NCBI GenBank assembly: GCA_012837765.1
Contig: DUQO01000012.1
Coordinates: 1-38,144, forward strand
Length of the DNA stretch: 38,144 nt
Direction of reading: 5' to 3'
From: Mollicutes bacterium
Lineage (GTDB): Bacteria > Bacillota_I > Bacilli_A > RF39 > UBA660
The translations under genes were made by a program, and so were the position numbers. The stretch's first letter is position 1, and every line of letters begins with the position of its first letter. Under the pieces are notes generated by a model, which saw only the letters and a program-made list of their open reading frames with translations, searched no databases and was not told the origin of the DNA. Below are positions 7,312 to 24,361 of the stretch, one piece after another.

Positions 7312-8521
7312 ATAGTAATTCTTTTATAGCTTTCTTATATTCTTCTACTCCATTTTGACCAAATGGGTTTATATCCTCTAAATAACCATTTATGACACAT
7401 GATATCATAAAAAATTGAAGTAAAAAACCAATTGATTCTTCATTTAACGATTCGATTGAAATAACATTGTTTAATACATTACCTTTTTTATGAGCAATAG
7501 AAGTTCCAGTAGATGCAATATTATTTATATCAGTTAAAGTTTTGTTATATTTTGAAATATATATATTGTTATTTGATATTAAGACATTTATTACTGTTTC
7601 AAATAATATTTTATTACCTTCTTGAACAAATTGACCTGATGAATGTAGATCTTTAGTATTTACAAAAGAAATTGGCAGTATTCCTTTTTCACCTTTGCCT
7701 AAGGATTCAGCATATAATTGCTTTAACCATTCAGCAAATGAATATAACTTAGGCTCATATACTACAAAGGCTTCAGCTGTTTTTCCTTTTTTATACATTT
7801 CTGCTCTAATAATGGCATATTTAATTTGATTATCAATGTTTTCAGTTGCTTTTTTAGCACCATCATATAATCTTTTTATGTTGATACCTGATACAGCTAT
7901 AGGTAGTAATCCTACTGGTGTAAAAACAGAGAATCTTCCTCCTATATCACTTGGTATAGCAAAAGATTTATAACCATTATTTATTACTTCTTGCCTTAGA
8001 GTTCCATGCTCTTTATCGGTAGTAATAATAATTCTTTTCTTTAATTCCTCATCGTTATATTTACTCTTCATGAAAGTCATAATTAAATCATAACCTATAC
8101 TTGTTTCTAAAGTTGTGCCTGATTTAGATATTACATTTACAATTACATTTTTGTCTTTAACAAGTTCTAATAAGTCATGATAATAATCACTAGATAAATG
8201 ATTACCTGCAAAATATATTTTAGGATTTTTTGTCTCATTATAAAAATATGGGTTTAAGGCATCGATTACCGCTTTTGATCCAAGAAAAGATCCACCGATG
8301 CCAAGTACTAAAAATACATCACAGTTATTTTTTATATATTGTGCAGTAGCATCTATATCACTAATTATGGTTTCATCAAAAAGGTTATCCACTTCATTCC
8401 ATGCCATATTAGGATTGGTATTTAAGAAATTATCTAGATTAGATAATTTCTTTTCATACCCTCTTAGAATTTCATCACTTAGCAAATCATTGGTGTATGT
8501 TTTAAAATCAAATTTTATCAT
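7310..8521 (-). CDS. pgi: Glucose-6-phosphate isomerase
   Basis: Converts glucose 6-phosphate and fructose 6-phosphate in glycolysis. The protein has 403 residues, shorter than the roughly 450 of many Bacillota enzymes. Family motifs are intact: LGIGGSFLGS (73-82), the phosphate loop SKSGTT (132-137), the signature IGGRFS (193-198), E272 in YAES, H293 in LHSSGQF, and the C-terminal signature ending NPFGQNGVEEYK with K395. The ATG overlaps the TGA stop of the upstream glucan synthase gene by four bases (ATGA), and AAAGGAGG lies inside the end of that gene, so the two are translationally coupled. The pairing suggests that hexose phosphate balance is tied to glucan synthesis or phosphorolysis; that link is inference. 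Confidence 0.95.
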   Translation of the reverse strand: MIKFDFKTYTNDLLSDEILRGYEKKLSNLDNFLNTNPNMAWNEVDNLFDETIISDIDATAQYIKNNCDVFLVLGIGGSFLGSKAVIDALNPYFYNETKNPKIYFAGNHLSSDYYHDLLELVKDKNVIVNVISKSGTTLETSIGYDLIMTFMKSKYNDEELKKRIIITTDKEHGTLRQEVINNGYKSFAIPSDIGGRFSVFTPVGLLPIAVSGINIKRLYDGAKKATENIDNQIKYAIIRAEMYKKGKTAEAFVVYEPKLYSFAEWLKQLYAESLGKGEKGILPISFVNTKDLHSSGQFVQEGNKILFETVINVLISNNNIYISKYNKTLTDINNIASTGTSIAHKKGNVLNNVISIESLNEESIGFLLQFFMISCVINGYLEDINPFGQNGVEEYKKAIKELL

Positions 8522-11500
8522 ACATCCTCCTTTACAACTATGCTTATAATGTGATTCTTTTTATCGTTTGTTAATTTAATAACATTATCTTTTAAAATTT
8601 TATCATCTAATTTAACATGTGCAACATATTTATGTTCATAACCTTCATTGATTACCTTAATGTGATAATAAGTATCATAATATCTATAAGTTATTTCATA
8701 CTCTTTCCAATCATTTTTAATTTTAGGGTTAATAATTAAAGAGTCTCCTTGTTTAGTAAAGCCTAAGATCTGTTCTATCCCTATTTTATAAGCCCAACTA
8801 GCTGAACCTGTATACCATGACCAACCACCTCTACCTGGATAGTTTTCATGAGAATATATATCAGCTGCTATTACATATGGTTCTATTTTATATATTAAGG
8901 CATCTTCTAATTTTAAAGTCCTATTGATTGGATTTATCATTTGATAATATTCATATGCTTTATCAATTTGATTTTCTTTTAGAAGTGATGATATATACCA
9001 TAATGCTGCATGTGTATATTGTCCACCATTTTCTCTAACACCTGGTTTATAGTCCGTTATATAACCAGGATTATTTCGCGAGTTTTTAAATGCTGGCGTT
9101 AATAACTTAATAATTTTATTTTGCTTATCAACAAGATGTTTTTCAACTGATTTGTACAATAATTCTTTTTTATCAGCTGGTGCAAAATTACTTAATACAC
9201 TCCATGCTTGGCATAACAAGTCTATTCTACATTCTTCATTATTTCTAGAACCTAAAGCTACTCCATTATCAAAATATGCTCTTAAATACCACGAACCATC
9301 CCATGCGTTTTTACTCAAGGCTTTACCTAGTTTTTCTTGTTGTTTTAAGCATAAATGAGCAAATGAATAATCTTGATATATTTTAGATATATTAGCCATT
9401 TTAGGTAATAAATCATATAAGAAGAAACCTACAAAGACACTTTCACCACTACCTAGATGTCCAACTCTATTCATACCATCGTTCCAATCACCACTACCCA
9501 TAAGTGGTAGTTCATGTTTACCAAATTGATTTAAAGCTTTAGTCATACATAATTTTAAATGATAATATAGCGGTTCTTCTTCTGTTAAATATTCATAACT
9601 AATACCCTTTTCTGATTCATTAGGATTTAATTTTTCTCCTTCTACAAAGCCAACGTATTCATTTAAAATGCTATTATCGCCTGTAATCCTTAAATATTCA
9701 CTTGTAACATAAATAAGCCATAAATAGTCATCTGTAAATTTAGTTCTAGAACCAATCTTCAATTCTTCATGCCACCAGTGAAGGACATCTCCTTCTTTAA
9801 ATTGATGTTTAGCATGTTTTAATATTTGATTTCTAGTAAGTTCACTATTGCTATATATAACACTCAAAGAGTCTTGTAATTGGTCTCTAAAGCCTGTTGC
9901 ACCACCTACTTGATAGAATCCTGCTTTAGCAAGTAAACGAGATGCATAAACTTGGTATAAATACCAACCATTTAAAACATAATCAAATGCTTTATCTGGT
10001 GTCTTAACAGTAATTGCAGATAATTTATGATTCCAATGTTCCCTTACCTTATCAAAAGATTCAGTTATATGATTATCATCATATTTTTTATAAGGGAAAT
10101 CATCTTCTGTACAACCAAGAACAAATGAGAAAGTCTTAGTTTCATTTTTATCTACTTTAATTTCTACATTTACACCTTTTTCTTTGACATTATCTAAAAC
10201 ATCTTTAATAGGTTCAGTTGATGAAATATAAGCTTTAATATTTCTGAAGTTAGTATTATATGTATTTTTTAGATACAAGCAATTATCTTTTTTATCAAAA
10301 TTAGATGTGATAAAACGAATAGTATTTTCCTCTGTAACACCTAAAACTATTTTTGAAATGAAATCAACTTTAATGTTTTGTTCTTTATTTAATTTATTGG
10401 TAACTGATAACTGATAAAATTTAGCAGTATCAGTATCGTGAACAAACACCTTTAACTTAATTTCATATTCGTCAGTAGAACATTCAAATATACTATATCC
10501 AAAGCCATGTCTTACAATAGCTGGTTTAAAGAGCTTGTCATTAATAAGTATCTTTTCACTTATTGGATCTGATGTTGCATCATTACTCCAAGATGTTAAT
10601 TTAAACTCTCTACTGTTATATGCATAAGTAAAGCCACCCATTGAATTTGTAATAACACAACCAAATTTTTCATTTGAAATAACATTACTCCAAGGAGCTG
10701 GTGTTTTTAAATCTGTAATAAGGTATTCTTTACCATCCTCTACGAATCCACCTAAATCGTTATAGAAAGTTATATCTTTTGGTAAGTCTACTTTTGTATT
10801 TTTTATTTCTTCATGTTTTTCTAACTTTTTCTCCAAAATACTGTTAGTAGCTGCATAAGCTTGCTCACTTAATCCAGCATCACTTGATGCATCAAATGAT
10901 ATTACTGATACCACCTCTAACAATGATTTTTCTTCTTCATTGATTTGCTCACCTGGTATTATATGTACTTTACCAGGTTCAGCCTCAAAACCATTGATAT
11001 TATTGATGTGATACATTAAATCTATTATATATTTATTGATTATGTTTGAACCAGAGCTATCTTTTTCATTACAATTATTGATTACAACTACATCAATATA
11101 AATAGATCTATCTTTATAATACTCAAAAATTTGTAATACTTCTTTAACAAAACCAAGGTCTTCAACATCAGATATTTCAACTAATATGATAGGCCAATCA
11201 CCAGAAACACCAAATTTCCATAAAGCTGATTGTGATAATTGGTTTTGTTTTATTAATTCATTTCTTTCATTACCATAAGACCATACGCCATAGATAAACT
11301 TTAAAAGTTTATTATATAGATGAACTTGATGAGGTAACAAGTTAGCATAACTAGTCCTAATATTATTTGATACGGTTGCAATATCAAAAGCCTTGCTAAT
11401 AGTAAATTCATCTTTATAAGCTTCTATTACTTCCATTACCTGTTCTCTTGATTTACCAAAACCTACTACCCAATATAATGTATTTTTACTTCGTGCTTCT

Positions 11501-14500
11501 ATTTTTATTTGTTTTCTAATACTCATTATTGAGTCTAATGAACAATCTAATGATTTAGATAATTTTTTATTGTTTATAATAACATCTGGATTAGAAACAG
11601 TGTTGTTTCTACCAATAAATTTATCTCTTGATGTTTCATATTCAAATGAATTATCATCATTTTTACCTAAAAACATTCTATTGATTATATAATATCTTGT
11701 ATTTTCTTTAGTTTTGGATTTTCTACTAAATATTAAAGATGATGTTTCAGGATCAGCTTCGCTAGTTATTGTAATACTGTTAAAAGCTCTATGTGCTACA
11801 TCTTCTTCATTACGAGCTATAATTACTTCACCATAAGAAGTAACTTCTAATGTCACATCATAATCATTGTTATTTTGGAAAGTTAATCTTCTAATTTCAG
11901 CATTATGATCTTTGACAACTGTTATTTCACTAGATGTAATAATTCCTTCATCTTCTCTCATATATTTAACACGGTCAGATGCAAATACAACTTTATAGTT
12001 TTTAGGCTTATCATATAATGGAGCATAGGTATTTGACCATACATTATTTGTTTTTAAATTTCTTATATAAAAGAATACACCATAATTTTCATTCGAGACC
12101 TTACGATACCTATTTATTTGTAAATTTTTATATTTACTAAAACCAATACCTCTATCGTCTAATATAACAGTATATAAACCATTTGATAATATACTCATTT
12201 CAGGAACATTATTTAACTCGTTAATCTCTCTAATATCACTTGGCTTATGTTCTTTCATATATTGATATTTTTTATATCTTGCTATCTTTAAATCAATATA
12301 TGTTTTTATTTGTACTTTTTCTTTTAAAAGAGTCTCAACAGAGGCAATTTTTTTATCGCTATGGAAATAATCTTGTATAACATTATCTTTTAAATAATTG
12401 GTTATACCTCCTAAGACCATACCTTGGTGATGAGCATAATAGTTTTTAACAACTGCTTTTTCCTCATAATCGTAAGCATCATAAAAACCATACTCACCAA
12501 ACATATCCAATTTTTTAAATTTTAAAATGTTGTTATATACTTCCCTATCATCAATACTTAAAGCCATTATTGAACTATAAGGAGATATAATGATTGGATA
12601 AGATAAATTATCTTGTGATTTTAAATATGGTATCCCAAAAGTTCCATATCTATAATTTTGAGAATCATCTAATTCATTATAAGAAGATTCTGATATACCC
12701 CAAGGTAATGCAGGGTCTACTTCTTTCATAAACTCTCTTTGTGTAAAGTATGCATAATAGTAAGTTTCATCAAGTAAAGTATGTTTATATGTTCTCATAT
12801 AAATTAGTGGCATAAAATATTCGAAAGCTGTTCCGTTCCATGAAACAACGCCTTTATAATATTTGTATTTAGTTAAAGCTTTGTTCAAGAAGAACCAGTG
12901 TTTATATGGAGCATCTCCTTTAGCAATAGTCATAAAACTAGTAATTCTTGCTTCTGATGCAAAATTATTGTAATGGTATGGTAATAATGCTTGTTCACTA
13001 AAATTATAACCTATACTAAAGACATCTAAATCTTTATTATATAACTTAGTAAAATCCATATTTTCAATAAGCATAGTTGAACGATATACCAATTCTTGAT
13101 TGTTATGTTTCTCAGCAAAGCCTTTTACAACATATAAATTAGCTAGTAAGTTTCCAGTATCAACAGTTGAGATAAAATATGGGTGCATCTTTTTAAGTGT
13201 ATAAATGTTATACCAGTTGAATAATAAACCATTCCACTTTTCTAATTTTTCAATTGTTTTAATTATATTTTTTAACATAGTAAAAGCTTTATTTAAGGTA
13301 ATAATATCAAGTTCAAAAGCAGATATTACGGCTAATAGAGAATAACCAATATTAGTTGGTGAAGTCTTATGATCAGCTTTTTCTTCCCTATTTAATTGAT
13401 AATTATCAGGTACTAAATAGTTTCTTTCTTCTGTGATTAAATCTTCAAAATACTTCCATGTTTGAATAGCGATAGAATGAAGATCATTTTTTTCTTCGCC
13501 ACTTAATTCTCTATCATCAATTACTAATCTTTTACTATAAAAATACATTACAAATGGTGCTATAAGCCAAATAAAAGCTATAAGTAAAACAAGTAATAAA
13601 CTATATGGTTTGAAAATAATACAACATATTATTAACAATATAGCTGATATATAATTGACTTTAAAACTTCTAAGATATGTTTGCAAGTTATTCTTTACTG
13701 TTTTTTCAAGTTCTTCAGCTGTAACCCAATTTAACAGTCTTTTCTTACTGATAAACATACGATATAAAGCTTTAACCATAGAATCAACATATAAATATGC
13801 TTCATATGGCAATATAGCAAATGAGATAAAGGATTTATGAATAACAGCTATTATTCCCTTTATTAAATTAAGATAATACTTTAAAAAGATATCATATTTA
13901 TTACGATATAAAATCATAGAAACTACATAAAAGATAATTGGAATAAGAATAACTAACCCAACTAAAGACACATAATAAAATGGTGACCCTTCTCCTACTG
14001 TAAAACCATAGAAAATAATCAAAAGTAAAAATGGATTAACTAAACTTCTTCTTAAATTATCAAATATTTTCCACTTTGAAATAAGGTTAATTGGGTTTTT
14101 AACCTTTTCACCTTTTTTGTTTCTTACCCATCTCTTAAGCCAACTTATTATTTGCCAGTCTCCTCTATTCCAACGGTGATGTCTTAGAGCATCATTCAAA
14201 TAATTACTTGGATAATCATCAAATAGTTCGACGTCATTTATAAAACCACTTCTTAAATAATTACCTTCAATTAAGTCGTGACTTAATATTAAATTTTCAG
14301 GAAAAGCCTCATATAAAACCTTATCAAATACTTCTAGATCATAAATACCTTTTCCAACAAAACTTCCTTCATTAAAGACATCTTGATATAAATCAAAAGA
14401 CGCTGTTATATAACTATCTAAGCCACCTAAACCAGCAAATAACTGTGAATACCTAGATTTACTTGTAACCTCTACATCTATTCCAATACGAGGTTGCATA

Positions 14501-16218
14501 ATAGCATGCCCACTCACAACATGAGTTCCATCTTTTGAAAGAACAGGTCTATTCATTGGATGAGCCATTGCACCTATCAATTTTAAAGCTGTGTTCAACA
14601 CTAATCTTGTATCAGCATCTAGTGTTATTACATATTTGATTTTCTTATTAAAATCATCAAAAGTTTGGCAATTAAAATACTCTTTTATTTCTTTCTTAGT
14701 TAATTTTTTTAATAATAATCTATTAAAATGTAATAAAGCTCCTCTTTTTCGTTCATAACCTAGGTAGCTTTCTTCACCTTCATTATAAAAACGATTACGA
14801 TAAACAAAATTAAATATTTTTTTACCATATTTTTCATTCAATTCATTTACTTTGTTAAGACCAGCTTCAACAACTTCCTTGTCTTTATCTGTCTCTTTTA
14901 CAGCTTCACTTGTACAATCACCTAGTAGTGTAAAATATAGATTATCTGTTTTATTAGACAAATAATATAATTCTAGTTTTTCAAACATTTGAATAACTTT
15001 TCGTTTGTTGTTTAAAATAGTTGGTATGACAACCATCGTAGCATATTCTTCTGGAAGACCATCTTCAAATTTTAGTTTGAATAAACTATCAGCCCTATCA
15101 AAATGCATTATGATTTGATTGAGTGTATCATGTACTATTACACTCATTGGTATAAGCGTAATCAGGAAAAATGGAAGTCCTGCATATCCTGCAACTAAAA
15201 TTGATAAAAGAATCGTTGCAACTACGATAAAAGAAACATAGAACGATGCTCTAAGTTTATATTTTGGTTTCTTAAATATATACCAACCAATATGTCTATT
15301 ATCTTTATTAGCCATATCAACTATATAAGATGCATATTCATATTCACTTATTTTCTTTCTTCGAGCTTTTTTAATTATTTGATATCTATATTCCGTTTTA
15401 TTATTATCATAAATTTTGCCATAAACATCTGCCTTTTCAGAAATAAGAAGTTTTTCTGTAAAGTTTATATTTTTGTATAGATACTCTATTTTATATTTTA
15501 CAATTTTATTAAGCGAATTAAAAATATTGATAATTACAAAATTATCAGAAGCCATATCATTATGTGATTGTTCTATCAGTTCTTTAAATGAAGTCCCTTT
15601 CTTTTTAAGTAGTTCATTTAATTTAATAAAAGCTTCTTCAGCAGAATCACCAAGTTCTTTTAATTTATAATGAAGTTGTTCAATATAATAAGGATTATCT
15701 ATTATATTATCAGTTATCTTGATATAATCTTCAATTTTTAAAGAATCATTTTCTTTAATATCTTTTCTGATTAAATTAAATATTTTCTCAACCTTTTCCT
15801 TTTGTTTTAATCGGTCATCAAATTTATCACATAATACTCTTAATTCAGAAATTAAAATCATTTTCATATATATATAAATAAGATTTATTTCATAATAAGA
15901 AAAGTAATCATTTTTCTCTTTTTGATATCTATTTAATTTCCTAAATACATCAGTTATATTTATTTGAAAATCATTAGTCTTTAAAAGATTATATATTAAA
16001 GAATATAAAACTCTTTTCCTTTTTTTCTTGATTAAATTTATATCAAAGCCATAGTATTCTGCTCTTACATTTTTTTCTTGTTCACTTATTACATAATAAT
16101 TATCAATAATCCATTCATTCATACTACCTACATTTCGACCATTTTTAGTGTATGATATCAACTTTTTATAATAATCTGTAATTCTTTTTACGCTTTTTTT
16201 GAATTGTGAAATATTCAT
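8518..16218 (-). CDS. ndvB: Giant cyclic beta-1,2-glucan synthase-like protein (GT84 + GH94, NdvB/ChvB family)
   Basis: A 2566-residue membrane enzyme, somewhat shorter than proteobacterial NdvB/ChvB (about 2800). Order: a cytosolic helical region (1-320); membrane helices near 325-363; a GT84 glycosyltransferase domain with LDADTR (D534, D536), SHDLIEG near 645 and RHHRWNRGDW (679-688, the QxxRW-like motif); further membrane helices near 728-770 and 855-895; a glycoamylase-like region (about 1000-1330, with YAHHQGM); then beta-sandwich and GH94 phosphorylase regions with the catalytic GSGDWNDGMN near residue 2240. In the family the GT domain builds a beta-1,2-glucan on the protein, and the GH94 part trims and sets chain length. 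AAAGGAG precedes the ATG. The exact product in this organism is not shown by sequence. Confidence 0.9.
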   Translation of the reverse strand: MNISQFKKSVKRITDYYKKLISYTKNGRNVGSMNEWIIDNYYVISEQEKNVRAEYYGFDINLIKKKRKRVLYSLIYNLLKTNDFQINITDVFRKLNRYQKEKNDYFSYYEINLIYIYMKMILISELRVLCDKFDDRLKQKEKVEKIFNLIRKDIKENDSLKIEDYIKITDNIIDNPYYIEQLHYKLKELGDSAEEAFIKLNELLKKKGTSFKELIEQSHNDMASDNFVIINIFNSLNKIVKYKIEYLYKNINFTEKLLISEKADVYGKIYDNNKTEYRYQIIKKARRKKISEYEYASYIVDMANKDNRHIGWYIFKKPKYKLRASFYVSFIVVATILLSILVAGYAGLPFFLITLIPMSVIVHDTLNQIIMHFDRADSLFKLKFEDGLPEEYATMVVIPTILNNKRKVIQMFEKLELYYLSNKTDNLYFTLLGDCTSEAVKETDKDKEVVEAGLNKVNELNEKYGKKIFNFVYRNRFYNEGEESYLGYERKRGALLHFNRLLLKKLTKKEIKEYFNCQTFDDFNKKIKYVITLDADTRLVLNTALKLIGAMAHPMNRPVLSKDGTHVVSGHAIMQPRIGIDVEVTSKSRYSQLFAGLGGLDSYITASFDLYQDVFNEGSFVGKGIYDLEVFDKVLYEAFPENLILSHDLIEGNYLRSGFINDVELFDDYPSNYLNDALRHHRWNRGDWQIISWLKRWVRNKKGEKVKNPINLISKWKIFDNLRRSLVNPFLLLIIFYGFTVGEGSPFYYVSLVGLVILIPIIFYVVSMILYRNKYDIFLKYYLNLIKGIIAVIHKSFISFAILPYEAYLYVDSMVKALYRMFISKKRLLNWVTAEELEKTVKNNLQTYLRSFKVNYISAILLIICCIIFKPYSLLLVLLIAFIWLIAPFVMYFYSKRLVIDDRELSGEEKNDLHSIAIQTWKYFEDLITEERNYLVPDNYQLNREEKADHKTSPTNIGYSLLAVISAFELDIITLNKAFTMLKNIIKTIEKLEKWNGLLFNWYNIYTLKKMHPYFISTVDTGNLLANLYVVKGFAEKHNNQELVYRSTMLIENMDFTKLYNKDLDVFSIGYNFSEQALLPYHYNNFASEARITSFMTIAKGDAPYKHWFFLNKALTKYKYYKGVVSWNGTAFEYFMPLIYMRTYKHTLLDETYYYAYFTQREFMKEVDPALPWGISESSYNELDDSQNYRYGTFGIPYLKSQDNLSYPIIISPYSSIMALSIDDREVYNNILKFKKLDMFGEYGFYDAYDYEEKAVVKNYYAHHQGMVLGGITNYLKDNVIQDYFHSDKKIASVETLLKEKVQIKTYIDLKIARYKKYQYMKEHKPSDIREINELNNVPEMSILSNGLYTVILDDRGIGFSKYKNLQINRYRKVSNENYGVFFYIRNLKTNNVWSNTYAPLYDKPKNYKVVFASDRVKYMREDEGIITSSEITVVKDHNAEIRRLTFQNNNDYDVTLEVTSYGEVIIARNEEDVAHRAFNSITITSEADPETSSLIFSRKSKTKENTRYYIINRMFLGKNDDNSFEYETSRDKFIGRNNTVSNPDVIINNKKLSKSLDCSLDSIMSIRKQIKIEARSKNTLYWVVGFGKSREQVMEVIEAYKDEFTISKAFDIATVSNNIRTSYANLLPHQVHLYNKLLKFIYGVWSYGNERNELIKQNQLSQSALWKFGVSGDWPIILVEISDVEDLGFVKEVLQIFEYYKDRSIYIDVVVINNCNEKDSSGSNIINKYIIDLMYHINNINGFEAEPGKVHIIPGEQINEEEKSLLEVVSVISFDASSDAGLSEQAYAATNSILEKKLEKHEEIKNTKVDLPKDITFYNDLGGFVEDGKEYLITDLKTPAPWSNVISNEKFGCVITNSMGGFTYAYNSREFKLTSWSNDATSDPISEKILINDKLFKPAIVRHGFGYSIFECSTDEYEIKLKVFVHDTDTAKFYQLSVTNKLNKEQNIKVDFISKIVLGVTEENTIRFITSNFDKKDNCLYLKNTYNTNFRNIKAYISSTEPIKDVLDNVKEKGVNVEIKVDKNETKTFSFVLGCTEDDFPYKKYDDNHITESFDKVREHWNHKLSAITVKTPDKAFDYVLNGWYLYQVYASRLLAKAGFYQVGGATGFRDQLQDSLSVIYSNSELTRNQILKHAKHQFKEGDVLHWWHEELKIGSRTKFTDDYLWLIYVTSEYLRITGDNSILNEYVGFVEGEKLNPNESEKGISYEYLTEEEPLYYHLKLCMTKALNQFGKHELPLMGSGDWNDGMNRVGHLGSGESVFVGFFLYDLLPKMANISKIYQDYSFAHLCLKQQEKLGKALSKNAWDGSWYLRAYFDNGVALGSRNNEECRIDLLCQAWSVLSNFAPADKKELLYKSVEKHLVDKQNKIIKLLTPAFKNSRNNPGYITDYKPGVRENGGQYTHAALWYISSLLKENQIDKAYEYYQMINPINRTLKLEDALIYKIEPYVIAADIYSHENYPGRGGWSWYTGSASWAYKIGIEQILGFTKQGDSLIINPKIKNDWKEYEITYRYYDTYYHIKVINEGYEHKYVAHVKLDDKILKDNVIKLTNDKKNHIISIVVKEDV

Positions 16219-17860: not shown

Positions 17861-17890
17861 TTAGCATTTTTTGAAATTTTGTGATATAAT
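17861..17890 (+). promoter_or_regulatory. Promoter of the CarD-like gene
   Basis: A perfect extended -10, TG-A-TATAAT (17882-17890), lies 18 bases after a weak -35 box, TTAGCA (17861-17866). Transcription should begin near 17897, just before the leader hairpin. Confidence 0.65.
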
Positions 17891-17904
17891 GTACTTACAG
17901 TGAG

Positions 17905-17948
17905 CTGCTTTTGAAGGCGTAAGTCCGGTTGCAAAAGTAGTTTTTTTT
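17905..17948 (+). promoter_or_regulatory. Terminator-like leader hairpin (candidate attenuator) upstream of the CarD-like gene
   Basis: CTGCTTTTG (17905-17913) pairs with CAAAAGTAG (17932-17940, one G-U pair). Inside, AA pairs with TT and GGC pairs with GTC across a GUAA tetraloop, leaving an unpaired CGG bulge (17926-17928). Eight T (17941-17948) follow directly. The structure sits between the promoter and the ribosome binding site, so transcripts could stop after about 50 bases or read through into the gene. It matches no riboswitch class that I can name. It could also be the end of a short independent RNA. Confidence 0.6.
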
Positions 17949-17964
17949 ATAGGAAGGTGATAAT

Positions 17965-18462
17965 ATGTTTGATGTTGGAGAGTATGTAGTTTACAGAACT
18001 AACGTTTGTAAAGTTGTGGAATTGGAAAAGGGTTATATAGATAATAAAGATTATTATATATTAGAACCTGTAAATGATTTATCACTGACGGTTAAGATTC
18101 CAACTGATAAAAGTGCTAATTTAATACGAAATGTTATAAGCGAAAAAGAAGTAAAGCAAATAATTGAAGAAATACCTAATATTGACATAATAGATAACGA
18201 TATCAGAAATATAGAAAACGAATATAAAAAATTATTGAAATCGGGCGGACATAAAGATTTAATAAAAATAATTAAAACGGCATACTTAAGAAATGAAGAA
18301 AGACTTGAAGCTAATAAAAAGATTAGTGAAACAGATAACAATTATTTTAAGAAGGCAGAAAAAATTTTATATACTGAATTTTCAATAGCACTAAATTTAT
18401 CATATGAAGATACAAAAGAATATGTTGTTAATAGAGTTAAAGTGTTAAATGAAATGAAATAG
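17965..18462 (+). CDS. CarD/CdnL-like transcription regulator (RNA polymerase-binding)
   Basis: A 165-residue protein. Residues 1-60 look like the RNA polymerase interaction domain shared by CarD, CdnL and the TRCF N-terminus: FDVGEYVVYR at the start, VCKVVELEKG, then YYILEPVND and LTVKIPTDK. The rest is helical, like the DNA-contacting C-terminal domain of CdnL. Such proteins bind the beta subunit and stabilise the open promoter complex. AGGAAGGTGAT stands three bases before the ATG. A terminator-like hairpin lies in the leader. The TAG stop at 18460 is followed in the same frame, only two codons later, by an orphan alpha-CTD-like reading frame. Confidence 0.82.
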   Translation: MFDVGEYVVYRTNVCKVVELEKGYIDNKDYYILEPVNDLSLTVKIPTDKSANLIRNVISEKEVKQIIEEIPNIDIIDNDIRNIENEYKKLLKSGGHKDLIKIIKTAYLRNEERLEANKKISETDNNYFKKAEKILYTEFSIALNLSYEDTKEYVVNRVKVLNEMK

Positions 18463-18468
18463 TTTTTC

Positions 18469-18684
18469 ATGAGAAAAAAAGCTTTAGAACAAGAGATTAA
18501 AATTTTAGATTTAAGTTCAGACATTGAAAACATTTTAATAATTAACAATATACTTTTTGTAAAAGACTTATGGGTATTAAATAGGAAAAATTTAAAAGAA
18601 ATTAACTTAACTGATAAACAAATAAACGAAATAACAATTAAACTACAATTACTAGGATTAGATTTAAATAAGAAAGTATATTAA
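18469..18684 (+). CDS. Orphan domain resembling the RNA polymerase alpha C-terminal domain
   Basis: A 71-residue frame. From about residue 12 it follows the alpha-CTD pattern: ILDLSSDIENIL for the usual L.dL.vRs.NcL, NILFVKDLWVLNRKNLKEI for NI.TvgeL..kte.dLl.i, and ITIKLQLLGLDL for i..kL...GL.L. The Arg that contacts DNA is not conserved. There is no Shine-Dalgarno before the ATG. The frame is the same as that of the CarD-like gene, separated by TAG-TTT-TTC, so it would need re-initiation or stop read-through. I read it as the C-terminal domain of a CarD fusion protein that has been cut off. The similarity call is from pattern only. Confidence 0.6.
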   Translation: MRKKALEQEIKILDLSSDIENILIINNILFVKDLWVLNRKNLKEINLTDKQINEITIKLQLLGLDLNKKVY

Positions 18685-18707: not shown

Positions 18708-18738
18708 AAAAAGGATTACATCACTGTAATCCTTTTTT
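18708..18738. terminator. Terminator between the alpha-CTD-like frame and the convergent gene
   Basis: A 13-bp stem (18708-18720 with 18725-18737) with a TCAC loop ends in six T on the plus strand and in TTTTTA on the minus strand. It serves both convergent transcripts. Confidence 0.85.
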
Positions 18739-20514: not shown

Positions 20515-21600
20515 TTATCCTATTTTTACTTTTAATAAGTTTATAAGATCCTCTTCTATTAATCTCCAATTTTGATTTAGATCTATTGTTTTAACTATCA
20601 TTTCTGATTTTTCTATCTTATCAGTAACTATTCTATTAAATTGATAAACAAAATCAGCTGATTCACCAGTATATGATTTAGGATATAGAAGTATCCCCTT
20701 TAACATTTTTTCCGTTTCATAGTTATTTATATATGCAAATATTTGATATAAATTTGGCGATATTAGTTTTTTATTATTGTCCTGATTATATCTAGTATCT
20801 TCATTATAAAAATTTTTATAATATTTAGTATCAATAATAATCACTTCTTCTTTATTTTCAAGTAATATATCCAATTCCATTCTTGGAAGCCAGTTTTTTT
20901 CAATTCCATTAACATTCCAAGATATTTGACTTTGGAAAGAAGTATTAAATTTCGTTTCCTTCTCCTTATGTTTATAAAAATTAAATACAAAAATTTCAAA
21001 TAATTTCGCCATTTTTTCATCATTTTCAAAACAATCAAAAAACTTATATTTTCCTGTTTTCTCCGATACCATTGTCATATTATTAATTAATTCACATATT
21101 TTTATTATTTCATAAGTGTAATAATTGTTTTTATTAAATTTAATATTAAACATATTATCCTTAATATCATTAATATCAACATTGTTAAGTCGTAACAAAA
21201 CATTATTAATTTTGTTCCTTAAATCTTGAGTAACTTCATCTAAGTGATACAACTTATATGCTATTGTTTTTATTATTTGATTGATTAGGTTGTTTTCTTG
21301 AAATTCATCATATTCACAAAAAGCTTTAGCATTTTCAAAGGACAAATTATTAATAGAATTCTTAAAATCAACTTTACCTTTTATACCTTTTATTTCATCA
21401 TTTATTGTTACATATTCTCTATATAGTCCAGATTTTAAATATGAATTAATATTTTTTAAAAATATTGAAGCTAATATATCAGGTGCTTCAAAGTCATCAT
21501 TACCACTTAAATAACTATCTTTTATTAAATCGGTTTTTCCCCAAACATAACTTAGCATATAGAAAATATTTTCAATTGGAACTTTTCTTTTTTGTTTCAT
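20515..21600 (-). CDS. mcrC: McrC-type nuclease subunit of a type IV restriction system
   Basis: A 361-residue partner of McrB. The N-terminal half matches McrC proteins (VPIENIFYMLSYVW start; IKGKVDF near 72-78, the usual rGri). The nuclease core is a PD-(D/E)XK fold: ELD with D244, then IIIDTKYY with D257 and K259. In the family McrC cuts DNA after the McrB GTPase ring translocates on modified DNA. AAGGAAG precedes the ATG. It starts one base after the mcrB stop (TGA-T-ATG), so the two are coupled. No defect is visible in this subunit, but its partner is frameshifted near its 5' end. Confidence 0.9.
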   Translation of the reverse strand: MKQKRKVPIENIFYMLSYVWGKTDLIKDSYLSGNDDFEAPDILASIFLKNINSYLKSGLYREYVTINDEIKGIKGKVDFKNSINNLSFENAKAFCEYDEFQENNLINQIIKTIAYKLYHLDEVTQDLRNKINNVLLRLNNVDINDIKDNMFNIKFNKNNYYTYEIIKICELINNMTMVSEKTGKYKFFDCFENDEKMAKLFEIFVFNFYKHKEKETKFNTSFQSQISWNVNGIEKNWLPRMELDILLENKEEVIIIDTKYYKNFYNEDTRYNQDNNKKLISPNLYQIFAYINNYETEKMLKGILLYPKSYTGESADFVYQFNRIVTDKIEKSEMIVKTIDLNQNWRLIEEDLINLLKVKIG

Positions 21601-21601
21601 A

Positions 21602-24361
21602 TCATTCTTCCTTTAGAATAATTTTATCAATTGCATCCTTAATTCTTTTTTCATCATCAAAGAAATATTCTTCAATTAAAGGTTTTATTTCATACTCCAA
21701 TATTTCTTGATAAGTTACCATAAAATCTTGAGAATCGACAAATTGATTAATAAAGTAACTATGTCCTATTTGAAATCCTTTGCCTAACTTTTCTGTTATA
21801 TAAGCGTTTAGATTTCGAAAGCTAACCATTATCTTATCGATTAGCTCCTCATCTACATTTTCCTTTTTTATTAAGTATTCTCTCATTTTATCAGTACCAA
21901 ATGCAGGCTCAAGATCAATGAAAGCAAATCTTCTTCTTAATGCATAATCTACCATCGTTAACGATCTATCTGCTGTATTCATAGTTCCAATAATATATAA
22001 ATTTTCAGGAATATAGAACTTTTCATCTGAATAAGTAAGATTTATAGACCATTTTTCACTTCTCTTATCGCTTTCAATTAGCAGCATTAGTTCACCAAAT
22101 ATTTTCGAAAGATTTCCCCTATTTATTTCGTCAATTATAATGCAATACTTTTCAGCATTTTCTCTGTTTTTTTCATATTCATTACATGCTTGCTTTACCA
22201 CTTCATAAAAAAGACCATTTTTTAATTCGAATTTACCATCATCGTTCGGCCTGTAGCCTTGAACAAAATCTTCATAAGAATATGATTGATGAAATTGAAC
22301 AGTAAATATCCTGTTTTCTTCTTTTCTTCCTATAATAGATTGCATTATTTTTTTGGCGCAAAAAGTTTTTCCTACTCCTGGACTCCCTTGCAATATTATG
22401 TTTTTCTTTCTTAATAAAGTGTTTACCATATTATCATATTTTTCTGGGGAGATAAATACATCATTTAAAAATGATTCTCGATCGTATTTATCGATAATGA
22501 TTTCTTGTTTTAATAATTCTTCAATTTGAGCAGCATATCCATCATATTTTGTAATATTTGTTAATGTTTTTCTTACTATTGGTGTACCAAATCTATCTAA
22601 ATGATTCCATTCACCTTTATCCGTCCATTCAACTTCTCTATAACTTATATTTTTTTCTTCATCATAAATATATTCGGATTTTACTACTCCTCTACCTAAT
22701 ATAGTAGATTGTCCTTTTTTAGCAAAAACTATATCTCCTTTTCTTATTTCCCTTGAAAATTCCCATTTTTCTAAAACTTTGTTTTTTAGCGAACCAGATC
22801 TATCATTTTTTTTGTTTGAATTAAGCAAATCCTTAATTTCGTTTTTATTTGTTAATTCCAACAAGTTTTCAAGTCCATCATTCTCAATTACCATAATTCC
22901 TTCAGAATAATATTTTTCCCACATGTCTCCAGTTGATCCTGGTGTATATAACCAATACTGAACATTACTATCACTATTATTACCCTTATTTAAAAATAAT
23001 AAATAATTCCAAATTGCATTACCTAAAAATTCTGGATTTTGTTCATTATACATATTAAGATCTTTTCTAATATTTTTATTTAGTACGTAAGATAATTGTT
23101 CCGCAGGTAAAGTTTTATCTATTTCATATCCAAACACTTTGAATGCATCATTTAATCTTTGCTTAGCCGCTATATTAATAAATTTATATGGGTAATATAA
23201 ATATAATAGTTTTGTCAATACCATAGACATATCTTTTAGTAAAGGAAATTTTTCTTTAGTAATATATGGCTCAATATCCAATTCAAATGATTTTATGAAA
23301 TCATAAAGTTGTTTTTTGAATTCTATCCAATAGGATTCAACATCTTCAATTACACCGTCAGGACCTTTGTATTTGTTTTCTGCTGCAGAGAAATAAATGC
23401 CATGTTTTTTTACAGTTCCGCCGCCAATCCATGGCCCTATTTTTTTGTATTTTCCAAATTCAAGATGATATGATAATGTCTCTCTAGAGTTTTCTATACC
23501 TAAACAATATTCGTCTAATCTAAGATTTAAAATTCTTTTAATCGGATATTCTTTTTGAAATTGATCAATAATTTCATTTGCGTTAACAATCCATTCTTCA
23601 ATTTTTGAGTTCTTTTTTTCTTCTTTATTGGAGATATAAAAATTTTTAAATTCTTCTATTATCATCTCAATGTTTTTATTATTGCTTTTCAAATATTCCG
23701 ATATGGGCTTACCTTCATTGTCTATCCAATCCGTTCTGCCATTTGTAGATCTCCCATTTGCAAAAACAGCTGCAGCGGTTGGCGAAGAAAATTCAACATC
23801 CTGTTTTAAAATCCTGTTTTCATCTAGATATTTATACAAAGCTAAAGCGTTTTTATAATATGCTTTATGATATTTTGGAAATTCAGAACTTGGAGTAGAT
23901 ATGTATGAGCCTTTTTGTAATATAAATTTATCACCATCATAAATTAAAGTTGCCTTTTTCCCAGATCTTTTTAAAGTAAAAATGTTGTTTCTAATACTAA
24001 TGTCAGATGGTAATTCTGTTTCACCAATTGAAGAAGTTATCTTTTTATTGAAAGTTATATAATCTGAAGCAATTATTACTTTCAGTTGGTTTAATAAGGT
24101 TAAAAATAAATTTATATCTTCAACAACATTGATTTCTTTGATATTATTCAAATTATAATATTTTGAATAAATAGTTGTAGCTTCGTAACCTTTAGCTAAA
24201 TTATGATCAGACCTAAGATCAATTTTACGATCTAGGGGCGCATTAATTTCATCCTTCAAATAAAGTGATAATGAATTTGCTATTTTTTTACCACGAGTTT
24301 CACCAAAATTATCTGAAAACCAAGCAAATCCCTGATTTAAAGTAATATAAAATCCAGACAT
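21602..24361 (-). CDS. mcrB: McrB-type AAA+ GTPase subunit of a type IV restriction system (main part)
   Basis: The 919 residues shown begin at an internal Met, MSGFYITLNQG, which has no good ribosome binding site. Upstream the same frame stays open and encodes YVVKASCGKGSFAKIPWI and EGYYIAILF, the usual N-terminal DUF3578 DNA-binding domain of McrB. A central region (about 520-590) with IRKGDIVFAKKG and ILGRGVV looks like the EVE-like modified-base reader. The GTPase core has Walker A SPGVGKT (near 660), Walker B IIIDEINRG (near 742), and MNTADRS with RRRFAF. The true 5' end is at 24633 in another frame, linked across a T7 tract. An intact gene would encode about 1010 residues. Confidence 0.88.
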   Translation of the reverse strand: MSGFYITLNQGFAWFSDNFGETRGKKIANSLSLYLKDEINAPLDRKIDLRSDHNLAKGYEATTIYSKYYNLNNIKEINVVEDINLFLTLLNQLKVIIASDYITFNKKITSSIGETELPSDISIRNNIFTLKRSGKKATLIYDGDKFILQKGSYISTPSSEFPKYHKAYYKNALALYKYLDENRILKQDVEFSSPTAAAVFANGRSTNGRTDWIDNEGKPISEYLKSNNKNIEMIIEEFKNFYISNKEEKKNSKIEEWIVNANEIIDQFQKEYPIKRILNLRLDEYCLGIENSRETLSYHLEFGKYKKIGPWIGGGTVKKHGIYFSAAENKYKGPDGVIEDVESYWIEFKKQLYDFIKSFELDIEPYITKEKFPLLKDMSMVLTKLLYLYYPYKFINIAAKQRLNDAFKVFGYEIDKTLPAEQLSYVLNKNIRKDLNMYNEQNPEFLGNAIWNYLLFLNKGNNSDSNVQYWLYTPGSTGDMWEKYYSEGIMVIENDGLENLLELTNKNEIKDLLNSNKKNDRSGSLKNKVLEKWEFSREIRKGDIVFAKKGQSTILGRGVVKSEYIYDEEKNISYREVEWTDKGEWNHLDRFGTPIVRKTLTNITKYDGYAAQIEELLKQEIIIDKYDRESFLNDVFISPEKYDNMVNTLLRKKNIILQGSPGVGKTFCAKKIMQSIIGRKEENRIFTVQFHQSYSYEDFVQGYRPNDDGKFELKNGLFYEVVKQACNEYEKNRENAEKYCIIIDEINRGNLSKIFGELMLLIESDKRSEKWSINLTYSDEKFYIPENLYIIGTMNTADRSLTMVDYALRRRFAFIDLEPAFGTDKMREYLIKKENVDEELIDKIMVSFRNLNAYITEKLGKGFQIGHSYFINQFVDSQDFMVTYQEILEYEIKPLIEEYFFDDEKRIKDAIDKIILKEE

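Follow-up and report, generated by a model that had tools for sequence, protein, structure and literature searches.

Anatomy of an operon encoding a CarD-family factor and an orphan RNA polymerase alpha-CTD-like protein behind a conserved leader RNA

Results

CarD and an orphan alpha-CTD gene make up a complete transcription unit

Our analysis revealed that a gene for a CarD-family transcription factor and a small gene for an orphan protein with the fold of the RNA polymerase alpha C-terminal domain (alpha-CTD) constitute a complete transcription unit, which comprises a promoter, a leader, the two genes and a terminator (Table 1). The unit lies in the window, by which we mean the whole stretch of 38,144 nucleotides that was analysed. 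CarD and the orphan alpha-CTD are a two-gene arrangement, not a broken fusion, and the anatomy of their operon is well supported. The distance between the TATAAT and the leader is constant in the alignment of relatives, and the leader hairpin starts a few bases past the predicted transcription start. The host assembly amounts to 1.0 Mb and is 93.6% complete. Elsewhere in the window the minus strand encodes a McrB/McrC-like type IV restriction pair (20515-24361), in which a DUF4357 domain is part of the McrB-like protein, and a protein of 2566 aa (8518-16218) with glycoamylase and GH94 domains, like cyclic beta-glucan synthase, which is large for a 1-Mb genome. A search for a defence-system association of the locus gave no convincing PADLOC match.

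Table 1. Elements of the CarD/orphan alpha-CTD operon and their positions in the window
Element	Positions	Strand	Description
Promoter	17861..17890	+	Sigma-70 type, TTAGCA-18-TATAAT with extended -10 TG; 10/12 matches, a level frequent in this AT-rich stretch
Leader RNA	17897..17950	+	Conserved; terminator-like attenuator with a probable tail-loop pseudoknot
Shine-Dalgarno of the CarD gene	17951..17959	+	AGGAAGGTG; from sequence
CarD-family transcription factor	17965..18462	+	165 aa, RID and CarD C-terminal domain, complete, TAG stop
Orphan alpha-CTD-fold protein	18469..18684	+	71 aa, separate gene, without Shine-Dalgarno
Intrinsic terminator	18708..18737	+	Closes the operon; bidirectional hairpin, fold z -6.0

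The two genes are separate in relatives

The original prediction had taken the two frames for one CarD-alphaCTD protein interrupted by a single stop codon. The layout on which it was built was confirmed, as the CarD frame ends at TAG 18460-18462, the 71-aa open reading frame (ORF) follows in the same frame from ATG 18469, two codons on, and the sequence before this ATG holds no Shine-Dalgarno. The fusion itself was contradicted by the relatives, which hold two separate genes, mostly with ribosome-binding sites of their own, an outcome that the original prediction had itself named as its refutation. We found CarD in 44 of 193 genomes of the same family, and in every intact copy the open frame spans 159-189 aa; no one-piece relative of about 240 residues was found, nor did any of the inspected fusion candidates of 135-445 aa contain CarD. 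The aligned CarD relatives all terminate within a few residues of the position of the TAG in the window. The TAG is therefore located at a C-terminus common to all CarD relatives and is not decay, an error or a site of required read-through, the three explanations that had been offered for it. Across the adjacent CarD/alpha-CTD pairs in the family genomes and named contigs, of which at least 14 are distinct, CarD stops at TAG or TAA and the spacing ranges from a 14-base overlap up to 19 bases; a 271-base 'pair' was left out of the spacing, its CarD copy (L124) being broken by an internal stop. As eight of the 14 pairs are in frame and six in +1, the shared frame in the window carries little meaning. 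Most orphan alpha-CTD copies have their own Shine-Dalgarno, the window copy and one other being without it, and many genomes carry an orphan alpha-CTD gene with no CarD alongside. When CarD and the alpha-CTD were modelled by AlphaFold as one read-through chain, both domains folded (pTM 0.72) and no interface was evident. As a general arrangement, the one-piece protein is refuted. The lack of a Shine-Dalgarno and the tight spacing suggest instead that translation of the orphan alpha-CTD is coupled to that of CarD, and the 71-aa protein is probably produced in this way.

The orphan alpha-CTD is associated with CarD and restricted to one clade

Orphan alpha-CTDs were detected at strong E-values in 19 of the 193 same-family genomes. 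Both CarD and the orphan are present in 11 genomes, where 4.3 would be expected (P 5e-4), so that the association of the two, claimed originally, is genuine. Still, about three quarters of the CarD genomes lack an orphan alpha-CTD, and the two are not an obligate pair, since each frequently occurs without the other. When 84,980 named genomes were scanned, 45 loci came up, 44 of which were re-recognised by the orphan profile, and nearly all of these loci come from metagenome assemblies of gut, rumen or digester Bacilli; the clade that carries them is presumably the GTDB order RF39. Run against 392 genomes of the phylum, the orphan profile recovered, besides the orphans of the family itself, only rpoA and a small number of unrelated proteins, and the matches examined outside the same family were rpoA or unrelated proteins. 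Judging by these searches, orphan alpha-CTDs form a family of their own that does not extend beyond this clade of Bacilli. The 71-aa ORF is not a chance reading frame, because it is encoded in some 20 genomes of the same family and none of the invariant residues is missing from the window copy. A phage origin was considered and rejected, as phage records held no match.

Several other arrangements were also seen. Downstream of thirteen orphan alpha-CTD genes without CarD (L092, L096-L099, L103, L109, L111, L113-L116 and L122) there are, on the same strand, large proteins of one family, with sizes of ~500-900 aa seen; the two that were scanned had no Pfam match. A membrane protein with a weak match to ATP synthase subunit I carries a C-terminal alpha-CTD-like domain (G415, L227 175-879), and one rpoA carries two alpha-CTDs in tandem (G394, L229 23-1357).

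CarD retains its RID domain and lacks the tryptophan wedge

The CarD identity of the first frame, part of the original prediction, was borne out by Pfam PF02559 (CarD_TRCF_RID; E 2e-7, 31.4 bits against a cut-off of 23), with PF21095 falling just below its cut-off (21.4 against 23.1 bits). In the Foldseek search with the read-through model, the CarD part fitted 8hvr_H and 6edt_M over ~165 columns at a target TM of 0.83-0.84. The RID domain is intact, and therefore binding of this CarD to the polymerase beta subunit is likely. In known CarD a tryptophan wedges the promoter minor groove (PMC4593161). The position of this wedge, which in M. tuberculosis is W85 and holds the open complex, is I83 in the window CarD and is occupied by I, L, M or Y, never W, in 19 of 19 relatives, so the wedge mechanism cannot be assumed here despite the CarD fold. 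One other RID domain is encoded in the host genome, within an open frame of 1097 aa that we take to be Mfd. Some CarD copies contain in-frame stops (L124 216-716; G071:C31, G189:C2, G175:C2 and G045:C2) and are apparently decaying, some of them still behind an intact leader.

The orphan protein has the alpha-CTD fold and has lost DNA-contact residues

By sequence, the 71-aa ORF matches Pfam RNA_pol_A_CTD just under the cut-off (E 2e-4) and the NCBIfam rpoA models at E 2e-5. A sequence-profile search returned alpha-CTD families at E 8e-5 and weaker; a de novo TIM barrel that outscored them there was discarded as a spurious, partial repeat match. The structure prediction agreed with the alpha-CTD pattern noticed originally: the AlphaFold model built with 21 homologues reached pLDDT 92.5 and pTM 0.79, and a Foldseek search of the PDB gave RNA polymerase alpha-CTDs throughout the top ranks, the best superposition being that with the B. 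subtilis alpha-CTD (1z3e_B; rmsd 1.0 over 65 columns, 35% identity).

In the E. coli alpha-CTD, R265, G296 and S299 are central to DNA contact, and the 287 determinant of a normal alpha-CTD is the site that meets activators. None of these three residues is found in any of the 51 orphan sequences (0/51 each, in E. coli numbering), while of the other residues of the DNA-contact determinant N268 is kept in 12, K298 in six and E302 in five. In their turn, W282 and D313 are present in 51 of 51, R286 in 46 of 51, and position 317 is always K or R. The host genome also has a single normal rpoA (E 4e-26), whose alpha-CTD retains R265, N268, C269, G296, S299 and E302. The orphan is a lineage-specific paralogue of the polymerase domain and, as far as the aligned residues and the predicted model tell, is an alpha-CTD fold devoid of the DNA-contact face, with a new conserved surface around 282-287, the region in which a normal alpha-CTD meets activators. 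As the DNA-contact residues are gone and new invariant positions are found instead, the orphan probably acts through protein contacts. Of the earlier proposal that the partner of CarD brings its own DNA contact, the alpha-CTD fold stands and the DNA contact is weakened.

A conserved leader RNA precedes CarD, orphan alpha-CTD and MATE genes

The leader in the window consists of a 5′ tail CAGU, a hairpin GAGCUGCUUUUG...CAAAAGUAGUUU with the loop GGCGUAAGUCCGGUUG, and then a U-tract; hairpin and U-tract occupy 17902-17948 and fold at -15.7 kcal/mol (z -2.4). It is matched at 17893-17949 by R1, our sequence-only leader model (E 4e-12). The loop is the same in the aligned relatives (consensus ACAACGAGUAGCUAU...GGCGUAAGUCCAGUUG..UAGCUAUUUUU), and loop bases unnecessary for termination are nearly invariant across a wide range of genera. 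The hairpin arms match far better within the individual sequences than between different ones (sum 488, against 360 +- 16 when permuted, with 0 of 1000 permutations as high). Pairing of the 5′ tail (CAAC) with the loop (GUUG) is possible in 20 of 23 sequences, three showing the compensatory form UAAC:GUUA, a level reached in 22 of 1000 permutations; on this modest evidence a tail-loop pseudoknot in the leader is probable. Rfam had no match at the gathering cut-off for the leaders of the window and 23 further loci, nor any below E 1 in four loci, and a BLAST search of a leader against plasmids found none.

We ran R1 on the 193 family genomes. Among the best 20 matches, 18 precede CarD or an orphan alpha-CTD; one of the remaining two lies before a small HTH protein and the other before no clear gene. 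One leader copy (L199 1501-1640) is found 5′ of a gene whose 69-aa product weakly matches a helix-turn-helix. In a genome of the window's own genus (G072), CarD and the alpha-CTD reside on different contigs, each with its own copy of the leader. A leader pattern search hit 23 genomes, three of its matches being chance matches in coding sequence, and the reversed control hit none. There is also a second leader form, CAAUGAGUAGC..UGCGUAAGUCCAAUUG..GGACUUACGUAUUUUU, whose terminator arm is formed by the conserved box. It lies before MATE efflux pumps, of which some share a MATE-CarD operon, and also immediately before CarD; we saw it 5′ of MATE in L013, L015, L030, L066, L067, L070, L071, L075-L077, L084, L085, L090 and L091. 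In L015 the MATE gene runs straight into CarD, and the upstream reading frame suggests the same for L013 and L030. Two other families have similar leaders before MATE genes, and a third has one before a cytidylate-kinase-like gene. The leader-like elements with a GUAAGUCC core stand 5′ of MATE in L184 and L185 (other families) and in L216 and L218 (same family), and 5′ of the cytidylate-kinase-like gene in L174; none of these five had an Rfam match. No transaminase gene was seen behind leaders among the downstream genes inspected, and sugE-type genes are nearly absent from the sampled phylum (1 of 149 genomes).

Discussion

A possible role for the operon

We consider it rather probable that the locus is an attenuator- or riboswitch-controlled operon of RNA polymerase modulators, CarD and the orphan alpha-CTD. 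The leader would terminate transcription by default, and a signal would refold its pseudoknot and let transcription through. The proposed signal is a small molecule or toxic compound, given that MATE efflux pumps are under the control of sister leaders. Joint production of CarD and, through translational coupling, of the orphan alpha-CTD would follow. CarD would dock through its RID domain on the polymerase beta subunit, and the orphan would act in trans at the promoter complex through protein contacts, either as an adaptor beside CarD or as a decoy that draws off activators or sigma from their normal contact with the alpha-CTD of the polymerase itself. Both the ligand of the leader and the action of the alpha-CTD protein are what we infer from these data. 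A bolder and more tentative reading, which we think possible and hardly probable, is that a new ligand-sensing RNA class with the core GUAGC...GGCGUAAGUCCRGUUG commands a wedge-less CarD, a free alpha-CTD that does not bind DNA, and efflux pumps. If so, a toxic compound would both induce its own export and reprogramme promoter recognition.

A literature search returned no description of a CarD-alphaCTD pair, of an orphan alpha-CTD family or of CarD under a riboswitch. Should orphan alpha-CTDs indeed work in trans, a domain detached from the polymerase would offer a novel means of adjusting promoter choice. Through their common leader, CarD, which is a general transcription factor, is linked with efflux pumps, and this leader provides a directly testable handle on the signal that calls for CarD in uncultured gut bacteria.

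Alternative explanations

The two-gene reading has to be weighed against a single CarD-alphaCTD protein that was split here by a recent stop, is read through, or was broken by a sequencing error. Such a protein would account for two parts that share a frame two codons apart and for a second part without a Shine-Dalgarno; given that all relatives stop CarD at the same place, by TAG or TAA, that six of 14 adjacent pairs are out of frame, that most orphan copies come with a ribosome-binding site of their own and many lack a neighbouring CarD, and that no fused protein appeared among the inspected candidates, we regard it as extremely improbable. With two separate genes, the orphan might be a DNA-binding activator on UP-like DNA that recruits polymerase together with CarD. 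Its alpha-CTD fold has the helix-hairpin-helix, and contact with nucleic acid could still be made by several conserved basic residues (R286, K or R at 317), but with R265, G296 and S299 missing from all 51 sequences and frequently acidic, a DNA-binding role seems unlikely and we prefer action through protein contacts.

Regarding the leader, a hairpin followed by a U-tract could be the ordinary terminator of an upstream unit or a plain promoter-proximal attenuator without a ligand, and the small gene a decaying fragment of rpoA; several CarD copies of the clade have stops, so the locus does decay in places. This account is quite improbable in view of the near-invariant loop bases that termination does not need, the placement of the hairpin downstream of the promoter and not before it, and the conservation of the orphan alpha-CTD with invariant residues of its own. 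Alternatively, the leader may belong to the guanidine-IV/Gd4v riboswitch class, with which it shares the design of a transcription terminator with a conserved loop and a pseudoknot (PMC7736828, PMC9788692), an association with MATE genes and, for Gd4v, the gut setting. We find this membership conceivable and rather doubtful: Rfam has no match for the leader, the published motifs form two hairpins whereas the leader forms one hairpin and a 5′ tail, and the essential positions reported do not appear to line up with the leader motif. These are a G and a U in the pseudoknot strand, a G at -4 and a G at +6, corresponding to G62, G66, U67 and G72 in L. lactis and G71, U72 and G77 in C. botulinum (PMC7736828, PMC9788692). 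Judged by the positions in the papers' text, this set gave no fit at fixed spacing in either type-1 or type-2 leaders. A short GG.../...CC pairing is possible inside the leader loop.

Comparison with known systems

Each component of the operon resembles a known one and departs from it. In comparison to the polymerase alpha-CTD (PF03118), the orphan has a closely similar fold (TM 0.84-0.89 to 1z3e_B and 3k4g), 25-35% identity and the helix-hairpin-helix, and differs in being a free-standing gene of 65-77 aa without the N-terminal assembly domain, in a one-residue deletion near E. coli 290, and in the loss of the DNA-contact residues with W282 and D313 as new invariant ones. The CarD protein shares with CarD/CdnL of Mycobacterium, Thermus and Streptomyces the RID and helical C-terminal domains and a full-length fold match (8hvr_H, 6edt_M, 4l5g), and differs in having no tryptophan wedge and in standing behind an RNA leader, often beside MATE or an orphan alpha-CTD. 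For the leader, the nearest published RNA design appears to be that of the guanidine-IV riboswitch and its variant Gd4v, in which a terminator with a pseudoknot controls MATE genes (PMC7736828, PMC9788692, PMC11611296). The likeness lies in the hairpin and U-tract terminator, the conserved loop with its putative pseudoknot and the MATE genes downstream of related leaders, and the difference in the core GUAGC ... GGCGUAAGUCCRGUUG and in the presence of CarD and the alpha-CTD downstream.
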